This document shows positions 47,871-64,000 of a stretch of 64,000 bases of DNA, one piece after another; within the stretch, counting starts at the first letter, position 1, and every line of letters begins with the position of its first letter. The stretch covers positions 1 to 64,000 of the forward strand of contig JAUIBH010000001.1 in NCBI GenBank assembly GCA_030427985.1, given 5' to 3'. The notes beneath the pieces are model-generated. The model had not been told where the DNA came from, did no database searches, and saw nothing but the letters and a program-made list of their open reading frames with translations. Origin of the DNA: Bacteroidia bacterium. Its GTDB lineage: Bacteria > Bacteroidota > Bacteroidia > Flavobacteriales > Flavobacteriaceae. A program made the position numbers and the translations under genes.

Positions 47871-48496
47871 TAGAAAATCACGTCCTGTTCCCCCATTTTT
47901 TTTGTTACCAATTTAATATAGGTGTCAATGGTTTTATCAACCTGTACCGTTTCGGTAACATCTAGGTCACCTCTCCAAATCAGTTCCATTTCCTTACCGT
48001 CACAAATACAGTATAAAGAGGTTTCCACGTGGTAAATATTGAATGAGTCATAAGACTCCGGGTCATAATAAATGTCTTGATGCTCTAAATAATCCGTACT
48101 GAACCGCATAAACATTCTATCAATGTTGTGCACCTTTTCCTTTAGGGTTCTTTTATTTTCAACTGCTACAACCTTAGTGAATAAAATAGCATCAAAATCC
48201 TTATCCAACAATTGCTGTTCCACTAGGGCAAGTTCTTCTTCGGACCGTTGTGATGAGGTAAACTCAACATCAAAAACATCTATGCTGCGCATGGCCTCAA
48301 CCTTTTTCGCTTCCAATTTATCAACCAATCGGGTCTCAAACTCCATGCGTACATTCTCATCCTGAGCCAGCCCAACCACAAGTACTTTATGGGCATCAAA
48401 AAGCACTATATCTGGATTCTTCCAAGTACTCACCAACTTTGTACTGGAACACCCCATGAGGAGGAAAAGACTTATGGCCCATATTTTTGATTTCAT
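47867..48496 (-). CDS. Hypothetical lipoprotein
   Basis: A 209-residue lipoprotein with lipobox LLMGC (Cys16). Residues 20-110 look like an alpha/beta domain (KVLVVGLAQDENVRMEFETRLVDKL, then a long helix), a pattern recalling DUF4136-like lipoproteins and the TolB/FlgO-like N-terminal fold, but I cannot name a family. It lies 40 bases downstream of hpf in the same direction, so it may be read through from the hpf promoter. Confidence 0.8.
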   Translation of the reverse strand: MKSKIWAISLFLLMGCSSTKLVSTWKNPDIVLFDAHKVLVVGLAQDENVRMEFETRLVDKLEAKKVEAMRSIDVFDVEFTSSQRSEEELALVEQQLLDKDFDAILFTKVVAVENKRTLKEKVHNIDRMFMRFSTDYLEHQDIYYDPESYDSFNIYHVETSLYCICDGKEMELIWRGDLDVTETVQVDKTIDTYIKLVTKKMGEQDVIFY

Positions 48497-48536
48497 TGGA
48501 ATGGATTTAAAACTTCATGCGCAGCAAAGATATATT

Positions 48537-48836
48537 TTAATATGTTGAAAACGTTTCTTGTCTTTTTTCCAATTGTCTTCTTAAATCTTCCACAGTTTGT
48601 GCCATGGACTTTTCAAAATCGTCCGTATTGGATTTGGCAAAAATTCGAGGGCCTGGGGCACTCAGTTCAATCTCGCACACCTTACCTTCCCCGGTTTTAT
48701 CATTTTCTTGCTTAAAAAGTACATTGGCCTTAATCAACCAACTGTATTTTTTTTCCAAACCCTCCATTTTTTTCATCAAAAGTTCAGTTAATGATTCACT
48801 GGTTTTCATTTTTTGATATTGAACATGTACTTCCAT
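48537..48836 (-). CDS. Ribosome hibernation factor (HPF/RaiA type)
   Basis: A 99-residue HPF/RaiA-fold protein that binds the decoding centre of idle ribosomes and blocks translation in starvation or stasis. The beta-alpha-beta-beta-beta-alpha layout and the basic final helix (VEDLRRQLEKRQETF) fit. The short form lacks the long C-terminal dimer domain. A TGAC-N4-GTCA site and a TAGCTTTG box lie directly upstream, so low-oxygen control is likely. The gene is downstream of pfk but has its own promoter. Confidence 0.9.
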   Translation of the reverse strand: MEVHVQYQKMKTSESLTELLMKKMEGLEKKYSWLIKANVLFKQENDKTGEGKVCEIELSAPGPRIFAKSNTDDFEKSMAQTVEDLRRQLEKRQETFSTY

Positions 48837-48858
48837 GATAATTGTTTTTGATTTACTT

Positions 48859-48901
48859 CAAAGCTAGGGTAGTAAAACAGCAAATTAAATGACAAATGTC
48901 A
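48859..48901 (-). promoter_or_regulatory. hpf promoter with FNR/CRP-like site
   Basis: Minus-strand TGACATTTGTCA (48890-48901), a perfect palindrome, with its centre 29.5 bp upstream of the first base of TAGCTTTG (48859-48866). The leader would be about 17 bases. The spacing is the same as at the usp, tonB, GCS/CBS and hemN promoters. Confidence 0.8.
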
Positions 48902-48914
48902 GCTTGTATTTACA

Positions 48915-50234
48915 TTATTGCCCTAACGAAAAAGGTTGGCCCGTGCTCTGCAATACCGAAAACCAAAACTCCCCCTCCAAATCTATCTTTTTCCGTTTTT
49001 TGGTCACTTCGGAAATGGGCACATACACATATTTATTGTTCACCTTACTGGCCACAAATTTGGTCTTGCCAGCCATAGCGCCATGTACTGCATGATATGC
49101 CAATCGGCCACAATACACACTATCGCTTGAGTTGGCAGGGGCACTCCTTACAATATAGCTGGGATCAATATATTTTATGGTCACTGATTTATCTTTAAAA
49201 TACTCCCCTATCTTCTCCTTCAAGAAAAGACCAATATCCTCGTGCTTTATGTTGCCCGAAGCATCCTTGACCCTATTTTTATCCTCAAATAACTGCTGAC
49301 CTGCTCCTTCGGCCACAACGATTACGGCATGCTTTTTCTGTTCCAATCGTTGTTCCAAAACCTTCAAAAATCCGTCATCACCTTCAAGCACAAAATCCAT
49401 TTCAGGAATGAGCACAAAATTGACTACAGGCATGGCCAAGGCTGCGGAAGCGGCGATAAATCCGCTATCCCTACCCATCAATTTAACGATGGAAATACCG
49501 TTGTAGGCACCTGTGGCCTCATTATGGGCATCCCTAAGAATGGGACTGGCCACATCAAAAGCGGTTTCATATCCAAAGGATTCATCAATGAGGTCAATGT
49601 CGTTGTCAATGGTTTTTGGAATACCAACCACACTGATCTTGGCGTCCCGTTTCAGGATTTCCTCTCCAATGGCATTGACTCCTTTCAGCGTACCATCGCC
49701 ACCAATGGCAAACAGCATGTCAATGTTGTTGTTTTCCAAGGTATCCACCATCACCGATACATCTTGGGCACCTCGGGAAGATCCTAAAAAGGTTCCCCCA
49801 AATTGATGGATGTCTTTTACCTTATCGGGTGTCAGCTCTACAAAATCATGGCACTTTTTTGGGTTAAGTCCCTCATACCCGTAGGGTATACCGATTATTC
49901 GCTTTACACCGTAGAAATAATGCAGTGCCATGACCACACCTCGAATCACATTATTGATTCCCGGACACAATCCACCGCAGGTAACAATGGCCGCAGATGA
50001 TTTTCCTGGTTCAAAAAAAAGATTTTGCCTAGGCCCCGCTTTCTCCAAACATAGTGGTTCTTCTCCTTTTTCAAGACATTTTTGGTAGCCTTCCATGGAC
50101 AAATCAAAGACAAATCTGTCCGTATCACTGATGAAATTAAAGATTTTATCCCCCCTTACCTTACTTAATTGTAAGGGCGATGTGAATTTGCCCGGTCCTA
50201 GGTTTTCTATTTGAAATTGGCTTTTGCTATCCAC
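48915..50234 (-). CDS. 6-phosphofructokinase, long type
   Basis: A 439-residue phosphofructokinase of the long, plant- and spirochaete-like kind. GGLCPGINNVIR is at 87-98, GGDGT at 178-182 and PKTIDND at 206-212. Gly in GGDG points to ATP rather than pyrophosphate as donor, while Lys207 is the residue of pyrophosphate enzymes; this mix is known from plant ATP enzymes, so ATP is the better guess. It is the last gene of the tight run usp, SLC13, pckA, pfk (28, 18 and 12 bases apart), so it shares the FNR-like site at 54603-54614. Confidence 0.93.
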   Translation of the reverse strand: MDSKSQFQIENLGPGKFTSPLQLSKVRGDKIFNFISDTDRFVFDLSMEGYQKCLEKGEEPLCLEKAGPRQNLFFEPGKSSAAIVTCGGLCPGINNVIRGVVMALHYFYGVKRIIGIPYGYEGLNPKKCHDFVELTPDKVKDIHQFGGTFLGSSRGAQDVSVMVDTLENNNIDMLFAIGGDGTLKGVNAIGEEILKRDAKISVVGIPKTIDNDIDLIDESFGYETAFDVASPILRDAHNEATGAYNGISIVKLMGRDSGFIAASAALAMPVVNFVLIPEMDFVLEGDDGFLKVLEQRLEQKKHAVIVVAEGAGQQLFEDKNRVKDASGNIKHEDIGLFLKEKIGEYFKDKSVTIKYIDPSYIVRSAPANSSDSVYCGRLAYHAVHGAMAGKTKFVASKVNNKYVYVPISEVTKKRKKIDLEGEFWFSVLQSTGQPFSLGQ

Positions 50235-50246
50235 TTTGGTTTGTTC

Positions 50247-51863
50247 TTAAAAATGTTCGGTCAAGCTGTGGTGTGAATCAATCAGTGGCCCTCCATTTAG
50301 GATTTCTTCTGAGGCTTCACTCGCAAACTTATCAAAATTAATATGGAACGAGTGTGCCAATTGAATGGCCTTGCTCACATAAGCTCCTTTTTGCAACCAT
50401 GTGTTCATGGGGTCCAATAACTCCGATGGGACACTTGGACAATACTTTGGCATATGCAACCCAAAGATAGGGTGAACGTCATAATCTACCTCATCCAATT
50501 TTCCTTCCAAAATGGCTGAAATCATTCCCCGTGTGTATTTTAATTTTATTCGGGATCCCACACCATAAGGTCCACCGCTCCAACCCGTGTTGATCAACCA
50601 AACACTGACTCCGGCCTCTGTCATTTTTTTACTCAGCATTTCGGCATATACCGTTGGGTGCAATGGCATAAAAGGTTCTCCAAAACAAGCAGAAAAGGAA
50701 GGCACGGGTTCATTGATTCCTGCTTCGGTTCCCGCTACCTTGGCGGTGTAACCTGATATAAAATGGTATGCGGCCTGACCCGGGGTCAACTTTGAAACAG
50801 GAGGTAAAACTCCAAAGGCATCACAGGTCAAGAAAAAGATGTTTTTGGGGTTGGATGCGTAAGAAGGCACCTGAATATTATCGATATGATCAATAGGATA
50901 GCTTACACGTGTATTTTGCGTGATGCTGCTATCGAAATAATCCACTTCTTTTGTCCCTTCCTTGAAGACCACATTTTCCAAAAGTGCCCCTGGGCGTATA
51001 GCCCTAAAAATATCGGGTTCCTTCTCCTCGGTAAGGTCGATCACTTTTGCGTAGCAACCTCCTTCAAAATTGAAAATGGTATCCTCTTTGGTCCAGCCGT
51101 GTTCGTCATCCCCAATCAATTTACGATCAGGGTCTGCGGATAGCGTTGTTTTTCCGGTTCCGGAAAGTCCGAAGAAAATGGCGGTATCCCCTGCTTCACC
51201 CACATTGGCCGAGCAGTGCATGGGCAATACCTCTTTTTCTGTAGGAAGAATGAGATTAAGGGCTGAAAAAATACCTTTCTTCATCTCCCCGGTATAGGCA
51301 GAACCTCCAACCAAGGCAATTTTTTTGGTGAAATTCAATATGGAGAAATTGCCACTGAGGATTCCAACCTCCGAAGGGTTTGGAGCTTCATACCCAGGAG
51401 CACAAAGCACCAACCATTCTTCTTCAAAGTTTTCCAGTTCACTTTCATCCAACCGCAAAAACATATTTTTAATAAAGTAGTTGGACCAAGGGTATTCGGT
51501 AACAGTCCTTACATTCATGCGATATTTGGGTTCTGCGCAGACGTAGGCATCGCGTACATAGACTTCCTTGCCGCTGAGATATTTTACCACTTCGGCATGT
51601 AGCTTATCAAAGTTTTCAGGGGATATCGGTTTATTGATTCGCCCCCACCAAACCTTGTCTTTGGTATAGTCATCCTTTACCAAAAAGCGGTCTTTGGGAG
51701 AGCGCCCTGTAAATTTTCCTGTTTTTACACAGAGGGTGCCATTTTCGGTTTCCACACCCATTCCTTTTTCCACCGTAATTTTTTGAAGCGTTTCGGCATC
51801 TAGGTTCCAATGTGCCGTAACATCCTTTAATCCGTACTTACTTAAGTCTTTAGTAGTGCTCAT
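50247..51863 (-). CDS. pckA: Phosphoenolpyruvate carboxykinase (ATP)
   Basis: A 538-residue ATP-type PEP carboxykinase. It has the P-loop GLSGTGKTTLS, the kinase-2 motif LIGDDEHGW and the FEGGCYAKVIDL stretch. It can form PEP in gluconeogenesis or run the other way (PEP + CO2 + ADP to oxaloacetate + ATP) in succinate-forming fermenters. Placed between a SLC13-like carrier and a phosphofructokinase in an operon with an FNR-like promoter, the carboxylating, energy-saving direction is the better reading under low oxygen; this is inference. Confidence 0.98.
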   Translation of the reverse strand: MSTTKDLSKYGLKDVTAHWNLDAETLQKITVEKGMGVETENGTLCVKTGKFTGRSPKDRFLVKDDYTKDKVWWGRINKPISPENFDKLHAEVVKYLSGKEVYVRDAYVCAEPKYRMNVRTVTEYPWSNYFIKNMFLRLDESELENFEEEWLVLCAPGYEAPNPSEVGILSGNFSILNFTKKIALVGGSAYTGEMKKGIFSALNLILPTEKEVLPMHCSANVGEAGDTAIFFGLSGTGKTTLSADPDRKLIGDDEHGWTKEDTIFNFEGGCYAKVIDLTEEKEPDIFRAIRPGALLENVVFKEGTKEVDYFDSSITQNTRVSYPIDHIDNIQVPSYASNPKNIFFLTCDAFGVLPPVSKLTPGQAAYHFISGYTAKVAGTEAGINEPVPSFSACFGEPFMPLHPTVYAEMLSKKMTEAGVSVWLINTGWSGGPYGVGSRIKLKYTRGMISAILEGKLDEVDYDVHPIFGLHMPKYCPSVPSELLDPMNTWLQKGAYVSKAIQLAHSFHINFDKFASEASEEILNGGPLIDSHHSLTEHF

Positions 51864-51881
51864 ATTTGTTGTTTTTATAGG

Positions 51882-53717
51882 TTAGAAGCTCCATATCCAT
51901 GGAACCAATAATAGTGTTGCCAAAAAGAACAGGAGAAGCAGGGGTCCTCCCACTTTTACATAATCCACAAATTTGTACCCACCCGCCGCCATTACCATAG
52001 CATTGGTGGTTGTACCCACTGGAGTTAAAAAAGCTGTTGAGGCACTAACCGCAACTGCTATCATGAATGGCTTCGGTGAAACGCCCAACGTCATTGAGGC
52101 CATAATAGCAATGGGTGCCATTAAAACTGCCGTGGCTGAGTTGTTAATGGCCTGACTGAACGCCGCGGTCAGTAAAAAAATGCCCGCCAAAAGTGCTGAT
52201 GGGTGTATGGCTCCCAAGCTCTCCACCAAACTATTGGCTGCCAATTGGGCCACTCCTGTCTTTTGCAAGGCCAACCCCATGGGAATCATCGCTGCTATCA
52301 TCACCACGCTGGTCCAGCTGATGCCTTTGTATGCTTTGGAGATGGGCACACAGCCCGTCAACATCATAATTCCAGCACAAATCAAAGCTGCAATGGCTCC
52401 CGGAAGCACATTGAGCACCAAAAGCAGCACCATCAAAATCAAGGTGCCCAGGGCGATATAACTTCTCGGGGTAAGGACGTCCACATTTTTGGCCAGCGCC
52501 TCTGGGCTTCCCGAAATCACTAAATTTTCATACATCGATGTAAGCCCTTCAATATTATCCCACTGGCCCCGAATGATGAATGCGTCCCCAGCTTCAATCT
52601 TAATTAATCCTCCTAAGGGTCTATTATGCCTCGATGCCGCCAATAACTGTATTCCAGCCTGCTTTAAGTAGTGCCCGAGTGGAATTGTTTTTCCAACAAA
52701 AACCGAGTTTGGGGTAATAATCATTTCGGCCATACCCACTTCTTGATTGATCAACTCTCTTTTAAGGGTATCTTTTTCTGGTTTCCAAGGAACGACTCCC
52801 AAATGAAATTTCAATATCAGTTTATCTACATCTTCTGCCTCTCCCTTTACCGTAATGATATCGTGATAGCGCATATCGGTATCAGGTCCTGGCATTTCTA
52901 CAAACTGAGGGATGCCTTGCAATGGATTGGGATGCCTTCGCTTCAACCGCATTACAGATACCTTATGGGTTTCTTCAAAGTCCCAATCACCCATATTGGT
53001 ATTAATCAATTGGGACATAGACCGAATCCGCAAGCGATACATATTATCTCCAATACTGTAATTTTTGATCCACTTGTGCATCTCTTGGTCTATGGCCGTA
53101 GGTTTATTTTCGGTACGATGACTAGGGAGCAGTTTGTATCCCAGGTATCGGAAATAAAAAATGGAAATAATCAATAAAGGAATACCAATCAGTCCAAATT
53201 CAAAGAACGAAAATCCTGAAATGCCATTTTCCTCCAATGCATTGCTCACAATAATATTGGGCGGGGTTCCGGTTAGAGTGAGCAACCCACCCGTATTTGA
53301 TCCAAAAGCTACAGGTATCAATAATTTTGAAGGCAATGTACCTGCATTCCAAGCTGCGGTGACCGTAACTGGCAATAAAGCAGCTACTGTTCCCGTATTG
53401 CTCACAAAGCCAGAAAGCAAACTGGAGCCCAAGGTGATTATGACCAACAACTTGGGGACACTTTTTTTTGCCCACTTCACAAACCACTGCCCTGCAACCG
53501 CTGTCCAACCGGTTCTTGAAAGTCCTTCACCGATAATAAACAAGGCCGCAATCATTATCACTGTTGGGTTGCTAAAACCGGTTAGGGTTTCCCCAATATC
53601 CAATATACCGGTCAAGTAGAGCGAAAGCATGGCCATCAGGGCCACCACATCTGGGGGAAACTTCCCCCAAACAAACAGTATAATTGTAATACCCAATATT
53701 ACCAGCAGTGGCAGCAT
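51882..53717 (-). CDS. SLC13/DASS-type anion permease with TrkA-C domains
   Basis: A 611-residue inner-membrane carrier of the divalent anion:sodium symporter superfamily. Two membrane halves (about 1-195 and 425-611) flank two soluble RCK/TrkA-C domains (about 225-310 and 315-400). SNTGTVAALLPV in the first half and NNSATAVLMAPIA in the second are the paired substrate loops. Likely substrates are dicarboxylates such as succinate, or sulfate. Its place between usp and pckA favours dicarboxylate exchange, by inference. Confidence 0.9.
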   Translation of the reverse strand: MLPLLVILGITIILFVWGKFPPDVVALMAMLSLYLTGILDIGETLTGFSNPTVIMIAALFIIGEGLSRTGWTAVAGQWFVKWAKKSVPKLLVIITLGSSLLSGFVSNTGTVAALLPVTVTAAWNAGTLPSKLLIPVAFGSNTGGLLTLTGTPPNIIVSNALEENGISGFSFFEFGLIGIPLLIISIFYFRYLGYKLLPSHRTENKPTAIDQEMHKWIKNYSIGDNMYRLRIRSMSQLINTNMGDWDFEETHKVSVMRLKRRHPNPLQGIPQFVEMPGPDTDMRYHDIITVKGEAEDVDKLILKFHLGVVPWKPEKDTLKRELINQEVGMAEMIITPNSVFVGKTIPLGHYLKQAGIQLLAASRHNRPLGGLIKIEAGDAFIIRGQWDNIEGLTSMYENLVISGSPEALAKNVDVLTPRSYIALGTLILMVLLLVLNVLPGAIAALICAGIMMLTGCVPISKAYKGISWTSVVMIAAMIPMGLALQKTGVAQLAANSLVESLGAIHPSALLAGIFLLTAAFSQAINNSATAVLMAPIAIMASMTLGVSPKPFMIAVAVSASTAFLTPVGTTTNAMVMAAGGYKFVDYVKVGGPLLLLFFLATLLLVPWIWSF

Positions 53718-53745
53718 GCTTTCTTATTGAATCGGGGTTATTGTA

Positions 53746-54537
53746 TCAGTCCAATGCCAGGACCGGAATCTCTGAATGCAGTGTCAACAGTTTTGTTAAA
53801 CGTCCTTCTGATGGAGTGCTTTTTTCAGTATGGTTTCTGGGCAAAATGGCCAGCATATCAATGTTCTTTTCATTGATGTATTCCAAAATACCTTGTTCCA
53901 CATCTTGGTTTTTGTTGAATGTATGTTCTACATAAAAATGCTCCAAGTAGTATTCCAACAAGTTCTCTGTACTGTCCACTACAGATTCCTCATCGTAAAC
54001 AGATTCCTTGTAAATGGTCAATACATGGACTTTGGAGTCAAAAGTTCGGGCAATATCCAAAAGGGTTGTCAACACCTCTTTGTCGTCAATTTTTTCACCA
54101 CCCATCACCAGGGCAATGTCCGCTGGCTCTTTGATGTTGCATCCGTAAGGAATGGAAATCACTGGGCAGTTGGCATCCAATACCAATCTAGAAGTGTTTG
54201 TAATGGCCTCATCGGTGATTTTGTCCCCCATAGTTCCCATCATGATCAAATCTGCATTACTTTCCTCTTCCACTTTTAAGATGGTACTGATCAAATCTCC
54301 GGTAGCAGTTTGTAAATCAGGGGCAACCTTCAATCTTACATTGAAGGATTCTACCACTTTTGCAAAATCTTTCTTCAATTCATCTTCTTCAGCTTTACTG
54401 GTCGGCATTACACCAACGTATAGAGCCAAAATGGTGATAGGCCTGTCTGGACCCACAAAATTGACTGCGTATTCCAATCCGTTTAGAGATGCCTCCGAAA
54501 AATCGAAAGGGACTACTATTTTTTTAATATTGCTCAT
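53746..54537 (-). CDS. Universal stress protein, two-domain
   Basis: A 263-residue protein of two UspA-like domains (about 1-135 and 140-263). The first begins KIVVPFDFSEASLNGLEYA and ends near NADLIMMGT, with a degenerate nucleotide site. The second keeps DMLAILPRNH. It heads a tight same-direction run usp, SLC13, pckA, pfk, and has the best FNR/CRP-like site of the window directly upstream (54603-54614). Such proteins help survival in stasis and low oxygen. Confidence 0.93.
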   Translation of the reverse strand: MSNIKKIVVPFDFSEASLNGLEYAVNFVGPDRPITILALYVGVMPTSKAEEDELKKDFAKVVESFNVRLKVAPDLQTATGDLISTILKVEEESNADLIMMGTMGDKITDEAITNTSRLVLDANCPVISIPYGCNIKEPADIALVMGGEKIDDKEVLTTLLDIARTFDSKVHVLTIYKESVYDEESVVDSTENLLEYYLEHFYVEHTFNKNQDVEQGILEYINEKNIDMLAILPRNHTEKSTPSEGRLTKLLTLHSEIPVLALD

Positions 54538-54571
54538 ACCTCAAATTTTAAATTATTCAAAACTTTCATTT

Positions 54572-54615
54572 CAAAAGTAGAGTCGCCCCATGACCTAAAA
54601 TATGACGGAAGTCAG
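54572..54615 (-). promoter_or_regulatory. usp-SLC13-pckA-pfk promoter with FNR/CRP-like site
   Basis: Minus-strand TGACTTCCGTCA (54603-54614), perfect half-sites, with its centre 29.5 bp upstream of a perfect TAnnTTTG box, TACTTTTG (54572-54579). The leader to the ATG is about 29 bases. Confidence 0.85.
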
Positions 54616-54731
54616 GTTTCTAACTTTTAATCCATATTAACAAAAAATCTCCCTATTTAAAAGCGTCTAGCGTTATTTTTTGAAATCATAATAGTTATAT
54701 TTAAAATCAACAAAAGAATGTTAGTTTAACT

Positions 54732-55691
54732 ATGGATATTGTAATAGGTGTGGACATTGGCGGCACTAAAACCAAGATAGGCCTTGTTGATAAAAACGGG
54801 GAGTGCCTTGAAAAAACTTTTTTTAGAACCAGGGACTTTCCAAACCTTAACGACTATTTGAACCAAATCAAGAGTAAATCGGACGAACTCATCCAAAAAA
54901 TAGGGAATGAAGTAAATGTTTTGGGATGTGGCATTGGAGCTCCCAATGCTTCAAGTAAAAATGGAACTATTGAGAATGCCAGTAATTTAATCTGGAAAGA
55001 CAGTGTACCCATTCTCAAAAAATTACAAGAGCGCATGCCCATGCCCATGCGCATCATGAATGATGCAAGTGCGGCAGCCCTAGGCGAAATGCTCTTTGGC
55101 GGCGCTAAAAACATGACCGATTTTATTGTGATCACCTTGGGTACCGGATTTGGCGCCGGTATTGTGGCCAATGGCCAATTGATAGACGGGTACGATGGTT
55201 TTGCCGGGGAGTTGGGCCATGTGGACATGACCCTGGGCGATGGTCGATTGACCGGGCTTGGCGTCCGAGGTGGGTTGGAAGCCTATGTATCTGCAACTGG
55301 CTTAAAACGTACCATTATGTATATGTTGAGCAAGTATACAGTAGATAGCAGGTTCAGGAGTGTAGCTTATAATGACCTGCATGGGGAAGATATTACCAAA
55401 GCGGCAGAAGAAGGTGACGAGATTGCTTTAAAGGCATTTGATTATACAGCTAAAGTAATGGGATTGGCCTTGGCCAACTTTACTGCGTTTACCCAACCCG
55501 AAGCTTTTATTTTAATGGGGGGGCTAACCAATAGTGGAAAATGGATCATGGAGCCCTTGGAAAAGTATTTCAATGCCAACCTTCTGGAAGTATATAAGGG
55601 CAAGGTAAAACTTATGTACTCTCAAATGGAGGGCAAAACCGCGGCCATCTGCGGAGCTGCGGCGTTAATATGGGAAAATCAAAAAAAGTAG
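54732..55691 (+). CDS. ROK family sugar kinase lacking zinc cysteines
   Basis: A 319-residue ROK protein, probably a glucokinase or related hexose kinase. DIGGTKTKIGLVD at the N-terminus binds phosphate, Asp111 (MNDASAAALGE) is the catalytic base, GTGFGAG is at 137-143, and E160 and H163 (ELGHVDM) fit sugar binding. The zinc motif of most ROK proteins, CxCGxxGCxE, is replaced by a cysteine-free stretch TGLGVRGGLE (174-183). There is no DNA-binding domain, so it is an enzyme and not a repressor. It is divergent from usp. Confidence 0.9.
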   Translation: MDIVIGVDIGGTKTKIGLVDKNGECLEKTFFRTRDFPNLNDYLNQIKSKSDELIQKIGNEVNVLGCGIGAPNASSKNGTIENASNLIWKDSVPILKKLQERMPMPMRIMNDASAAALGEMLFGGAKNMTDFIVITLGTGFGAGIVANGQLIDGYDGFAGELGHVDMTLGDGRLTGLGVRGGLEAYVSATGLKRTIMYMLSKYTVDSRFRSVAYNDLHGEDITKAAEEGDEIALKAFDYTAKVMGLALANFTAFTQPEAFILMGGLTNSGKWIMEPLEKYFNANLLEVYKGKVKLMYSQMEGKTAAICGAAALIWENQKK

Positions 55692-60582: not shown

Positions 60583-61941
60583 ATGTGTGGATTAGTACAG
60601 AAATATAATGTGCCGGGGCCTAGGTACACCAGTTATCCAACAGTTCCGTATTGGGATTTGGACAATTTTTCTGGTAAACGCTGGAAATCAACTGTATTGA
60701 AAGCCTTTCAGGAAAATCCCAAAGAAGGAATCAGCCTATATGTACACCTTCCTTTTTGCGAAAGTATGTGCACATTTTGTGGTTGCCACAAGCGCATCAC
60801 AAAAAGGCATGAGCTGGAGCTTCCTTATATTAACAGTGTATTGAAAGAATGGAAGTTATATGTTGACCTGTTGGGGACCAAACCCATCATTAAAGAACTT
60901 CATTTGGGTGGTGGAACGCCCACTTTTTTCTCTCCGGAACACTTAAAAATATTGATAAATGGAATTCTCCTGAACAGCAAAAAGGCGGAAAACGCCCAAT
61001 TCAGTTTTGAAGGGCATCCAAACAATACAACCAAAGCGCACCTACAGGCCCTTTTTGATGTGGGGTTTAGAAGGGTCTGTTACGGTGTGCAGGATTATAA
61101 CATGACCGTTCAAAGGGCCATAAACAGAATCCAACCCTTTGAAAATGTAAAAAACGTGACCGATTGGGCCAGGGAAATAGGGTATACCTCAGTAGGACAT
61201 GATATTATCTACGGGCTGCCATTTCAGGACTGCGCCCATGTAGAGGAGACCATTAAAAAGACCAATGCCCTACGCCCAGACCGAATTGCTTTTTACAGCT
61301 ATGCCCACGTGCCTTGGCTCAAGGGAAATGGACAACGGGGTTACAAGGAAACTGACCTGCCTTCTTCCGTAGTGAAAAAAGCACAATACGAAATGGGCAA
61401 AAAAATGCTGACAGATTTCGGATACAAAGATGTGGGGATGGACCATTTTGCCCTACCTACTGATGACCTCTATACCGCATTGACCCACGGAACCCTTCAC
61501 CGAAACTTTATGGGCTATACCCCATCAAAGACCAAATTAATGATAGGTCTTGGTGTATCCAGCATCAGTGATAGCTGGTACGGATTTGCCCAAAATGTAA
61601 AGAGTCTGGAAGAATATGAACATTTGGTTTCGCACGATGTTATTCCTATTTTTAGAGGACATATTCTGAACTCAGAGGATGAAATCGTAAGAAAGCACAT
61701 TCTTAATCTCATGTGCCGATTTGAAACTTCCTGGGATACGGAAGAAGCTGAAATAGTCGATTTTCAGAGTATCATTGAAAACCTATCGGAAATGGAATCT
61801 GATGGTTTAGTGGAGATAGGAGAAAATCAGATTTCAGTGACCGAAAAAGGAAGACCTTTTGTAAGGAACATTAGTATGGCCTTTGATTTGAAACTGCATC
61901 GAAAGAAACCAGAAACCCGAATATTTTCCATGACCGTTTAA
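60583..61941 (+). CDS. hemN: Oxygen-independent coproporphyrinogen III oxidase
   Basis: A 452-residue radical SAM enzyme that makes protoporphyrinogen without oxygen. The cluster motif is C59-x3-C63-x2-C66 with a fourth Cys68, inside HLPFCESMCTFCGCHK, followed by LHLGGGTPTF. The N-terminal YNVPGPRYTSYPTVP is typical of true HemN rather than HemW. Its promoter carries an FNR-like site, the expected control for an anaerobic haem step. A universal stress protein gene follows after 17 bases. Confidence 0.97.
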   Translation: MCGLVQKYNVPGPRYTSYPTVPYWDLDNFSGKRWKSTVLKAFQENPKEGISLYVHLPFCESMCTFCGCHKRITKRHELELPYINSVLKEWKLYVDLLGTKPIIKELHLGGGTPTFFSPEHLKILINGILLNSKKAENAQFSFEGHPNNTTKAHLQALFDVGFRRVCYGVQDYNMTVQRAINRIQPFENVKNVTDWAREIGYTSVGHDIIYGLPFQDCAHVEETIKKTNALRPDRIAFYSYAHVPWLKGNGQRGYKETDLPSSVVKKAQYEMGKKMLTDFGYKDVGMDHFALPTDDLYTALTHGTLHRNFMGYTPSKTKLMIGLGVSSISDSWYGFAQNVKSLEEYEHLVSHDVIPIFRGHILNSEDEIVRKHILNLMCRFETSWDTEEAEIVDFQSIIENLSEMESDGLVEIGENQISVTEKGRPFVRNISMAFDLKLHRKKPETRIFSMTV

Positions 61942-62873: not shown

Positions 62874-64000
62874 TTATCCGTGAAACCGTTCATAGGCCGC
62901 CTTTTCCAGCTCCTCTCTATGATTAGGGTGCGCAATGGAAATTAGTGCTTTGGCACGTTGTTGCAAATTCTTTCCAAAGAGATTCACCACGCCATATTCA
63001 GTAGCTACGTAATGCATATGGGCACGCGTGGTGGTAACCCCAGCACCTTGCTTTAAAAAGGGCGTTATTTTAGATACTCCCTTTTTTGTAGTAGATGACA
63101 TGGCTATGATGGGTTTGCCACCTGGTGAAAGCGATGCCCCGCGCATAAAATCCATTTGGCCGCCAACACCTGAAAATTGGTACCCTCCAATGGTATCTGC
63201 ACAAACTTGTCCGGTAAGGTCAATTTCTATGGCGCTATTGATAGCCGTTGCTTTTGGGTTTCTTCGGATTCTGGCCGTATCGTTGGTATAACCGGAGTCC
63301 CTGAAATCACAAATGGGATTATCGTCTATAAAATCATACAGTTTTTGGGAACCTACGGCAAAGCAACTTACAATTTTACCTCGTTTCACTGCCTTTTCCT
63401 TCCCGTTGATGACACCGCTCGCCAAAAGCGGCAATACACCATCGGAAAACATCTCAGTATGAATGCCCAGGTTTTTATGGTTCCCCAAGTTAGATAACAC
63501 CGCATTGGGTATGTTCCCAATGCCCATTTGTAAGGTAGCGCCGTCTTCTATCAACGAGGCCACGTGCCTTCCGATTTCGTGTTCCACTTCCGATATTTCA
63601 GTCGGATTATGTTGGTGAATGGGCCTATCGACCTCTATTGCGAACTCGATTTCATCAATATGAACTATTCCTGTTCCATGGGTGCGTGGTACTTGTGGAT
63701 TTATCTGCGCTACAATTTTTTTTGCGGTCCGTACCGCGGGCAATGCCACATCCACTGAAACACCAAGAGAACAATAGCCATGCTTGTCTGGTGGTGATAC
63801 CTGAACAAAAGCCACATCTAAAGGAAGGTACTCATCTGCAAATAGCCAAGGTATCTCACTTAAAAAAACAGGGATGTAATCACCCATATATGTATTTACA
63901 TAACTTCTTACATTGCCCCCTACAAAACATGCGTTTAAGGTAAAGGCTTCGCAGTAGGGTTTTCTCGTATACTTGGCATCCCCTTCAGTGTGGATGGAAA
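62874..64000 (-). CDS. Acetyl-CoA hydrolase/transferase family protein, 3' part
   Basis: The frame is open to the window edge, so the gene starts outside; the visible part has about 375 residues. It belongs to the class of 4-hydroxybutyrate or succinyl-CoA:acetate CoA-transferases, which move CoA between short acids and can make acetate with ATP gain in fermentation. Seen are GGNVRSYVNTYMGDYIP, VSPPDKHGYCSLG, MGIGNIPNAV, HTEMFSDGVLPLL with a candidate catalytic Glu, and the C-terminal ATEYGVVNLFGKNLQQRAKALI. The exact acids cannot be told. Its promoter is not visible. Confidence 0.92.
   Translation of the reverse strand, partial: SIHTEGDAKYTRKPYCEAFTLNACFVGGNVRSYVNTYMGDYIPVFLSEIPWLFADEYLPLDVAFVQVSPPDKHGYCSLGVSVDVALPAVRTAKKIVAQINPQVPRTHGTGIVHIDEIEFAIEVDRPIHQHNPTEISEVEHEIGRHVASLIEDGATLQMGIGNIPNAVLSNLGNHKNLGIHTEMFSDGVLPLLASGVINGKEKAVKRGKIVSCFAVGSQKLYDFIDDNPICDFRDSGYTNDTARIRRNPKATAINSAIEIDLTGQVCADTIGGYQFSGVGGQMDFMRGASLSPGGKPIIAMSSTTKKGVSKITPFLKQGAGVTTTRAHMHYVATEYGVVNLFGKNLQQRAKALISIAHPNHREELEKAAYERFHG

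Follow-up and report, generated by a model that had tools for sequence, protein, structure and literature searches.

A predicted low-oxygen usp-SLC13-pckA-pfk operon that may join glycolysis to a reductive C4 branch in marine Flavobacteriaceae

Introduction

Why should a glycolytic phosphofructokinase gene and a usually gluconeogenic phosphoenolpyruvate carboxykinase gene share one operon? The question is raised by the 64,000-nucleotide stretch of DNA analysed here (the window; positions 1 to 64,000 of the forward strand of contig JAUIBH010000001.1, GenBank assembly GCA_030427985.1, a member of the Flavobacteriaceae), in which four genes, usp, SLC13, pckA and pfk, follow each other behind an FNR-like promoter. 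The original prediction proposed a low-oxygen operon in which glycolysis supplies phosphoenolpyruvate (PEP) to a reductive C4 branch by way of oxaloacetate. The promoter architecture, an FNR-like gene beside the cbb3 oxidase genes and the comparison with relatives all favour an operon of the FNR type, and both the operon itself and its control by low oxygen are almost certainly real. Comparison of gene contexts gives good support to the view that it supplies a reductive C4 branch with PEP. The whole explanation, which combines an FNR-type switch, phosphofructokinase (PFK), a PEP carboxykinase (PEPCK) branch, a carrier and a slow-down programme, is probably right, with appreciably less certainty. 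The pathway is of a known type and stands under a known type of switch. This combination was not found described in the literature searched, and a search of titles and abstract openings gave no description of the operon.

The operon and its genes

The genome (3.63 Mb in 188 contigs, 88.9% complete) carries the window as part of contig C114. In a search with the pfk gene, the closest named relatives belong to Allomuricauda/Muricauda/Flagellimonas (92% at best); loci and genomes of this genus of the Flavobacteriaceae are called congeners below. The promoter and the four genes are as follows.

54572-54614, minus strand: usp promoter, with the FNR-like site TGACTTCCGTCA (54603-54614), a spacer of 23 bases and the -7 box TACTTTTG (54572-54579)
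53746-54537, minus strand: usp, which opens the operon and encodes a universal stress protein of 263 residues (Pfam Usp, 68 bits)
51882-53717, minus strand: SLC13/CitMHS-type anion carrier with a TrkA_C (RCK-C) insert, 611 residues (Pfam CitMHS, 289 bits; TrkA_C, 42 bits)
50247-51863, minus strand: type 2 pckA, ATP-dependent PEPCK, 538 residues (TIGR00224, 715 bits, cut-off 590)
48915-50234, minus strand: pfk, GTG start, encoding a long, trypanosomatid-like ATP-dependent 6-phosphofructokinase of 439 residues (NF005301, 657 bits, cut-off 400)

The gaps between the four open reading frames are 28, 18 and 12 bases, as first described, and the families assigned at that time agree with the profile matches (Usp; CitMHS with TrkA_C; ATP-type PEPCK; PFK). 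A scan of 48300-54900 finds 4 terminator-like sites where 6.6 are expected, and none of them lies in the three intergenic gaps of the operon. One weak minus-strand site (51954-51928, 3 G-C pairs) is located within the 3' end of SLC13.

The genome also holds a second pckA (C121:48541), which is 64% identical to the operon copy (340/529), and a second PFK (C8:29005). The pckA and pfk of the operon are therefore paralogues, and these second copies were overlooked in the original prediction. Both PEPCK copies have the sequences GLSGTGKTTLS, HCSANVG, IGDDEHGW and NTRVSYP, which we take to be the P-loop and active-site motifs, so that by family and motifs the operon copy is predicted to be an ATP-dependent PEPCK. 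The best solved relatives of the pfk product are 2hig and 6qu3 (E about 1e-95, along residues 59-431), and its motif is GGDGT. Since GGDG rather than GGDD is presumably the mark of the ATP type, family and motif together predict an ATP-dependent PFK.

Promoter architecture and putative activator

Class II FNR activators sit at -41.5. In the usp promoter, TACTTTTG matches the Bacteroidetes -7 box TAnnTTTG. In Flavobacterium psychrophilum this box occupies -12 to -5 (PMC9723704, in part); a spacer of 23 then centres the usp dyad at -41.5, and the site is thus predicted to occupy the position of a class II FNR-type activator.

The exact sequence TGACN4GTCA occurs twice in the window, as TGACTTCCGTCA before usp and once before hpf at 48890. 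The 12-mer taken alone was rejected as evidence, since it matches the genome at 32 places and its reversed control at 28, and TTGATN4ATCAA with 2 mismatches is not above chance (81 found, 69 expected; 7 of 100 shuffles reach that number). When the -7 box TANNTTTG is required at a distance of 21-25 bases, the 12-mer matches the genome 20 times and the reversed control 0 + 1 times. The spacer is exactly 23 in 15 of these 20, and 13 of the 15 fit TGAYN4RTCA.

The same spacing is kept in relatives. Over the 40 named pfk loci (842,214 bases, spacers 8 to 45 scanned), pairs of TGAYN4RTCA and TANNTTTG have a spacer of 23 in 76/76 cases and occur at none of the 37 other spacers; since most of the 40 loci are from congeners, the 76 pairs are not independent. 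When the last G of the box is left free, the spacer is 23 in 21 of 27 upstream regions of first genes from other genera, with 3 pairs in total at the other 16 spacers between 15 and 31. Eight outgroup loci have TGAN6TCA 55-69 bases 5' of usp.

The most likely activator of the operon is an FNR-like protein whose gene lies on the same contig, C114 (C114:73018; L020 13018-13707). On its 5' side stand a P-type ATPase gene, then a fused CcoN/CcoO gene of the cbb3 oxidase and, further on, a CcoG gene. The protein is one of four HTH_Crp_2 proteins in the genome, scores 109 bits against NCBIfam Fnr, under the cut-off of 228, and has a model of predicted local distance difference test (pLDDT) 82, low at residues 1-20. 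In E. coli FNR, the cluster cysteines are C20, C23, C29 and C122. Among the best 30 of 40 orthologue matches, C5, C8, C54 and C107 are invariant, and the position of C29 is Asn in 28 and Ser in 2. In the alignment with solved FNR, C5, C8 and C107 match cluster cysteines, while Asn or Ser takes the place of the third N-terminal ligand and C54 stands elsewhere. Unlike E. coli FNR, the protein thus has cysteines at three of the four cluster positions, and it likely carries a cluster. The invariant cysteine off the E. coli position may be a shifted cluster ligand.

Conservation of the operon

Conservation of the gene order in relatives had been proposed as a check on the operon. Among 29 congener loci, the full order usp-SLC13-pckA-pfk is found in 18, usp-pckA-pfk in 4, usp-pfk in 6 and usp-(pckA remnant)-pfk in 1, and the site with its 23-base spacer precedes usp in all 29. 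The order is conserved, with the promoter constant and SLC13 and/or pckA missing from the loci that lack the full set. SLC13 is always accompanied by pckA in these operons (18/18). The remnant (L051) consists of residues 483-538 only, which indicates that pckA was lost from a larger operon, at least there. The neighbours kept in congeners are a glucokinase-like gene, hpf, the gene of a 209-residue protein and a sugar porter gene.

Beyond the genus, an SLC13 orthologue (E <= 1e-100) occurs in 27 of 149 family genomes, the present one included. At the 27 SLC13 loci of other genera (26 genomes), type 2 pckA lies directly 3' of SLC13 in 14, all 14 with the spacer-23 site, and usp precedes SLC13 in 6. 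pfk comes after pckA in two (L176 and L179), each from another genus and with the full usp-SLC13-pckA-pfk order, and alpha-glucan phosphorylase comes after SLC13 in one (L173). In Robiginitalea aestuariiviva (L080) and Pelagihabitans (L085), the arrangement is usp-SLC13-phosphorylase with a convergent pfk. The copy number of pckA was counted in 22 of the 26 other SLC13 genomes (G072, G093, G118 and G217 left out): a further pckA is present in 13 of the 14 genomes with an SLC13-linked type 2 copy, the exception being G178, and pckA is single in 6 of the 8 with an unlinked SLC13.

Direction of the PEPCK step

The type 2 pckA genes form one clade with support 1.00 in a tree of 45 sequences. No site was found within 400 bases of pckA at any of 49 non-type-2 loci (48 of the type 1 kind and the deep-branching L276), and of the two unlinked type 2 genes, that of L279 has one and that of L299 has none. 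Nine of the 13 congeners in which pckA gave a single match were typed, 8 as type 1 and 1 as type 2; the other four genomes are at most 83% complete.

Two further contexts bear on the direction. Another type 2 pckA is part of usp-pckA-sdhC-sdhA-sdhB in congeners G026, G031 and G034 (L142, L143 and L144). The sdhC product belongs to the b558 family and the sdhA product is of the fumarate reductase/succinate dehydrogenase kind. This sdhA is additional to a 673-residue copy and is identical in the three genomes, which suggests recent transfer of the island. In G026 and G031, the spacer-23 site, glpK, glpD and an aquaporin-family gene lie ahead of the island. Short pckA remnants are located close by. 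The second context is an operon of biotin carrier, biotin carboxylase and carboxyltransferase genes that adjoins methylmalonyl-CoA mutase. The site precedes it in 28 of 30 congener loci, which are the best among 69 matching genomes; the copy in the present genome is on C123 (L118 6553-10049). The best match of the carboxyltransferase is mmdA, at 812 bits under a cut-off of 999, so that it could equally be a propionyl-CoA carboxylase.

Both contexts fit a path from PEP through oxaloacetate and succinate to propionyl-CoA. The present genome has as candidate parts of it PEPCK, one succinate dehydrogenase flavoprotein, the methylmalonyl-CoA mutase subunits and an mmdA-like subunit; its CoA-transferase family protein is below every cut-off. 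Judged by these contexts, the operon PEPCK likely runs in the carboxylating direction. The proposed junction of glycolysis with a C4 branch gains support from the same comparison, through the status of both pckA and pfk as second copies, the alpha-glucan phosphorylase that follows usp-SLC13 in certain other genera and the type 2 pckA that adjoins a second fumarate reductase/succinate dehydrogenase in G026, G031 and G034.

The SLC13 carrier

The carrier is predicted to have the DASS fold with an RCK-C insert. Its model has a pLDDT of 80.5, and the best fold matches are NaCT, VcINDY and NaS1 (E 4e-12 to 1e-11). These are carriers of dicarboxylate, citrate and sulfate that match alike, and the fold does not decide the substrate. 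Against NCBIfam dass the sequence scores 148.3 bits, below the cut-off of 198.6. The first SNT motif (S106-N107-T108) is invariant in 38 sequences and the second is altered to NNS (N525-N526-S527), so that the carrier has one of the two SNT motifs intact. The linkage to pckA favours a C4 acid, and a C4-dicarboxylate is the best guess for the substrate.

Proposed mechanism

When oxygen falls, an FNR-type activator would bind at -41.5 and turn on usp-SLC13-pckA-pfk. The ATP-dependent PFK isozyme would raise glycolytic flux, and the second PEPCK would convert part of the PEP into oxaloacetate with a gain of ATP. From gene context, oxaloacetate would pass through malate and fumarate to succinate, part of which would be converted by way of methylmalonyl-CoA into propionyl-CoA by the products of an operon with the same type of site. 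The SLC13 carrier would move a dicarboxylate linked to the branch, as exporter or exchanger, which is the weakest step. Usp and Hpf would be part of an accompanying slow-down programme.

The operon together with the promoter rule (site, 23 bases, -7 box) offers a short list of candidate genes for anoxic fermentation, and the rule would allow the low-oxygen regulon of the family to be read from genomes. The operon would also be a natural case of two PEPCK isozymes divided by an oxygen switch.

Contrary evidence and alternative explanations

Several observations weigh against this mechanism. Intact pckA is absent from 7 and SLC13 from 11 of the 29 congener operons, which implies that usp-pfk works without them. 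The strict -7 box is rarer in other genera, where 25 SLC13 loci give 5 pairs at a spacer of 23, 2 at 24, 1 at 11 and 1 at 40. No site was found within 400 bases of the unlinked type 2 pckA of L299 (G199) or before usp-pckA-sdhCAB in G034, and the FNR-like gene itself has a site 5' of it in 6 of the 30 orthologues only. PEP carboxylase is present in 71/71 congener genomes, so oxaloacetate is obtainable without PEPCK, and PEPCK as the sole route to it was rejected. G001, a complete congener, has the type 2 operon pckA as its only copy, and the enzyme can therefore presumably serve gluconeogenesis too. In view of PEP carboxylase and G001, the original statement that the gene combination only makes sense if pckA runs from PEP to oxaloacetate is too strong. 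Flagellimonas marinaquae JCM 11811, in which the operon is complete (L056), is listed without anaerobic growth (PMC12323373, in part). In Actinobacillus succinogenes, DASS carriers are thought to serve fumarate uptake and Dcu carriers succinate export (PMC6011838, in part), which disfavours simple export by SLC13. Succinate export by this carrier is a tentative assignment, one that we think somewhat more probably wrong than right.

The alternative that survives best reverses the flow. DASS carriers are mostly Na+-coupled importers, and SLC13 might take up C4 acids (succinate, malate, fumarate) from neighbouring organisms under low oxygen, from which PEPCK would make PEP for sugar and cell wall, with pfk sharing only the promoter. 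The uptake role in A. succinogenes agrees with this, as does the persistence of G001 on type 2 pckA alone; SLC13-pckA is also the commonest pair in other genera, and 12 of its 14 occurrences are without pfk directly behind. However, an ATP-dependent PFK on the same transcript would oppose gluconeogenesis, which the other pckA already covers in 13/14 genomes. The alpha-glucan phosphorylase and glucokinase neighbours indicate sugar breakdown, and the type 2 pckA by the second fumarate reductase/succinate dehydrogenase, behind glycerol genes, indicates use of PEP. Uptake with gluconeogenesis is therefore unlikely.

Slightly less probable still is a stress or dormancy operon, in which usp, hpf and pfk would serve low-energy survival while pckA and a sulfate or phosphate carrier balance the PEP-oxaloacetate node with no net fermentation. 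The usp-pfk part, found in 29/29 congener loci, the separate site of the adjacent hpf, and a carrier fold as close to the sulfate carrier NaS1 as to dicarboxylate carriers, with NNS as second motif, are in its favour. It does not account well for the direct linkage of pckA to SLC13 in 14 of the 27 loci from other genera, 14/14 with the site, or for the same site on the methylmalonyl-CoA branch. That the four genes are no functional unit, with proximity and shared regulation reflecting general low-oxygen control, is very improbable: gene content does vary among the 29 loci (18 full, 4 without SLC13, 6 usp-pfk, 1 with the pckA remnant), but the four-gene order recurs in two other genera (L176 and L179) and SLC13 is never without pckA in congener operons (18/18).

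Comparison with known systems

The low-oxygen C4 branch proposed here resembles the fermentation of Bacteroides and Phocaeicola, in which PEP is carboxylated to oxaloacetate and passes through malate, fumarate, succinate and methylmalonyl-CoA to propionate. For Phocaeicola vulgatus, the route from PEP through succinate to propionate is described and two PEPCK genes are listed (PMC11405475, in part). The present case differs in belonging to a respiring marine family, in its FNR-type switch, in an extra pckA beside the housekeeping copy, in the grouping of that pckA with genes for PFK, Usp and an SLC13 carrier, and in the additional presence of PEP carboxylase. The regulation resembles that of the FNR/ANR/FixK regulons of Proteobacteria, of which usp genes are a frequent target: the dyad is at -41.5, and hemN, cbb3 and FNR-like genes are among or beside the targets, whereas here the site TGAYN4RTCA is joined to a Bacteroidetes -7 box. 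The carrier shares the fold and first SNT motif of the DASS/SLC13 carriers VcINDY, NaCT and NaS1 and departs from them in its RCK-C insert, its NNS second motif and its sub-threshold NCBIfam dass score. The pfk product is like the trypanosomatid-type ATP-PFKs 2hig and 6qu3 along residues 59-431 and in GGDGT, but is a bacterial isozyme within an FNR-type operon.

Descriptions of Flagellimonas species report menaquinone-6 and either facultatively anaerobic or strictly aerobic growth (PMC12323373, in part). In coastal sands, Flavobacteriaceae are reportedly the dominant group in anoxic fermentation; acetate, propionate, butyrate and succinate were formed in cultures under anoxia, and anaerobic growth was found for a Lutibacter isolate and not for Maribacter (PMC10939381, in part). 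The genes behind this succinate and propionate are not named in the parts of that source covered. We propose, at just short of an even chance, that a complete FNR-type fermentation regulon is present in marine Flavobacteriaceae, which are commonly regarded as aerobic. It would comprise a dedicated second PEPCK and PFK, an SLC13 C4 carrier and a methylmalonyl-CoA branch run as decarboxylase, and would make succinate and propionate in short anoxia, the direction of the PEP-oxaloacetate step being set by the type of isozyme and not by the chemistry of the enzyme.

Predicted regulon and neighbouring genes

The remaining features of the window that belong to the same predicted regulon or adjoin the operon are as follows.

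48859-48901, minus strand: hpf promoter of the same build, TGACATTTGTCA, spacer of 23 bases, TAGCTTTG
48537-48836, minus strand: hpf, ribosome hibernation factor family, the next gene, with its own promoter and in the same predicted regulon (Pfam S30AE, 56 bits)
54732-55691, plus strand: ROK-family glucokinase-like gene, divergent neighbour, retained next to the operon in relatives and also in L078 and L174
60515-60557, plus strand: hemN promoter, the third FNR-like promoter of the same build
60583-61941, plus strand: hemN, oxygen-independent coproporphyrinogen III oxidase, in the same predicted regulon (TIGR00538, 427 bits, cut-off 325)

In the whole genome, the architecture stands before usp of the operon, hpf, hemN, the FNR-like gene, the biotin carrier gene and a cytochrome c gene, and also before usp genes of C157 and thioredoxin-like, DoxX-like and ribonucleotide reductase beta genes; the names hpf, hemN, cytochrome c, biotin carrier and FNR-like come from family searches and the rest were assigned by eye.

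Near the end of the window, an acetyl-CoA hydrolase/transferase family gene (62874-63887) extends past the window end; its top NCBIfam matches are butyryl-CoA:acetate and succinate CoA transferases, all below their cut-offs. Elsewhere in the genome, many usp genes are clustered on C157 (38-50 kb, L119), where a small heat-shock-like gene, a gene for a D-2-hydroxyacid (lactate-type) dehydrogenase and several FNR-type sites are also present. At C148:15512 (L038), an FNR-type site precedes the ribonucleotide reductase beta gene, where an N-terminal ATP-cone is apparent by eye.

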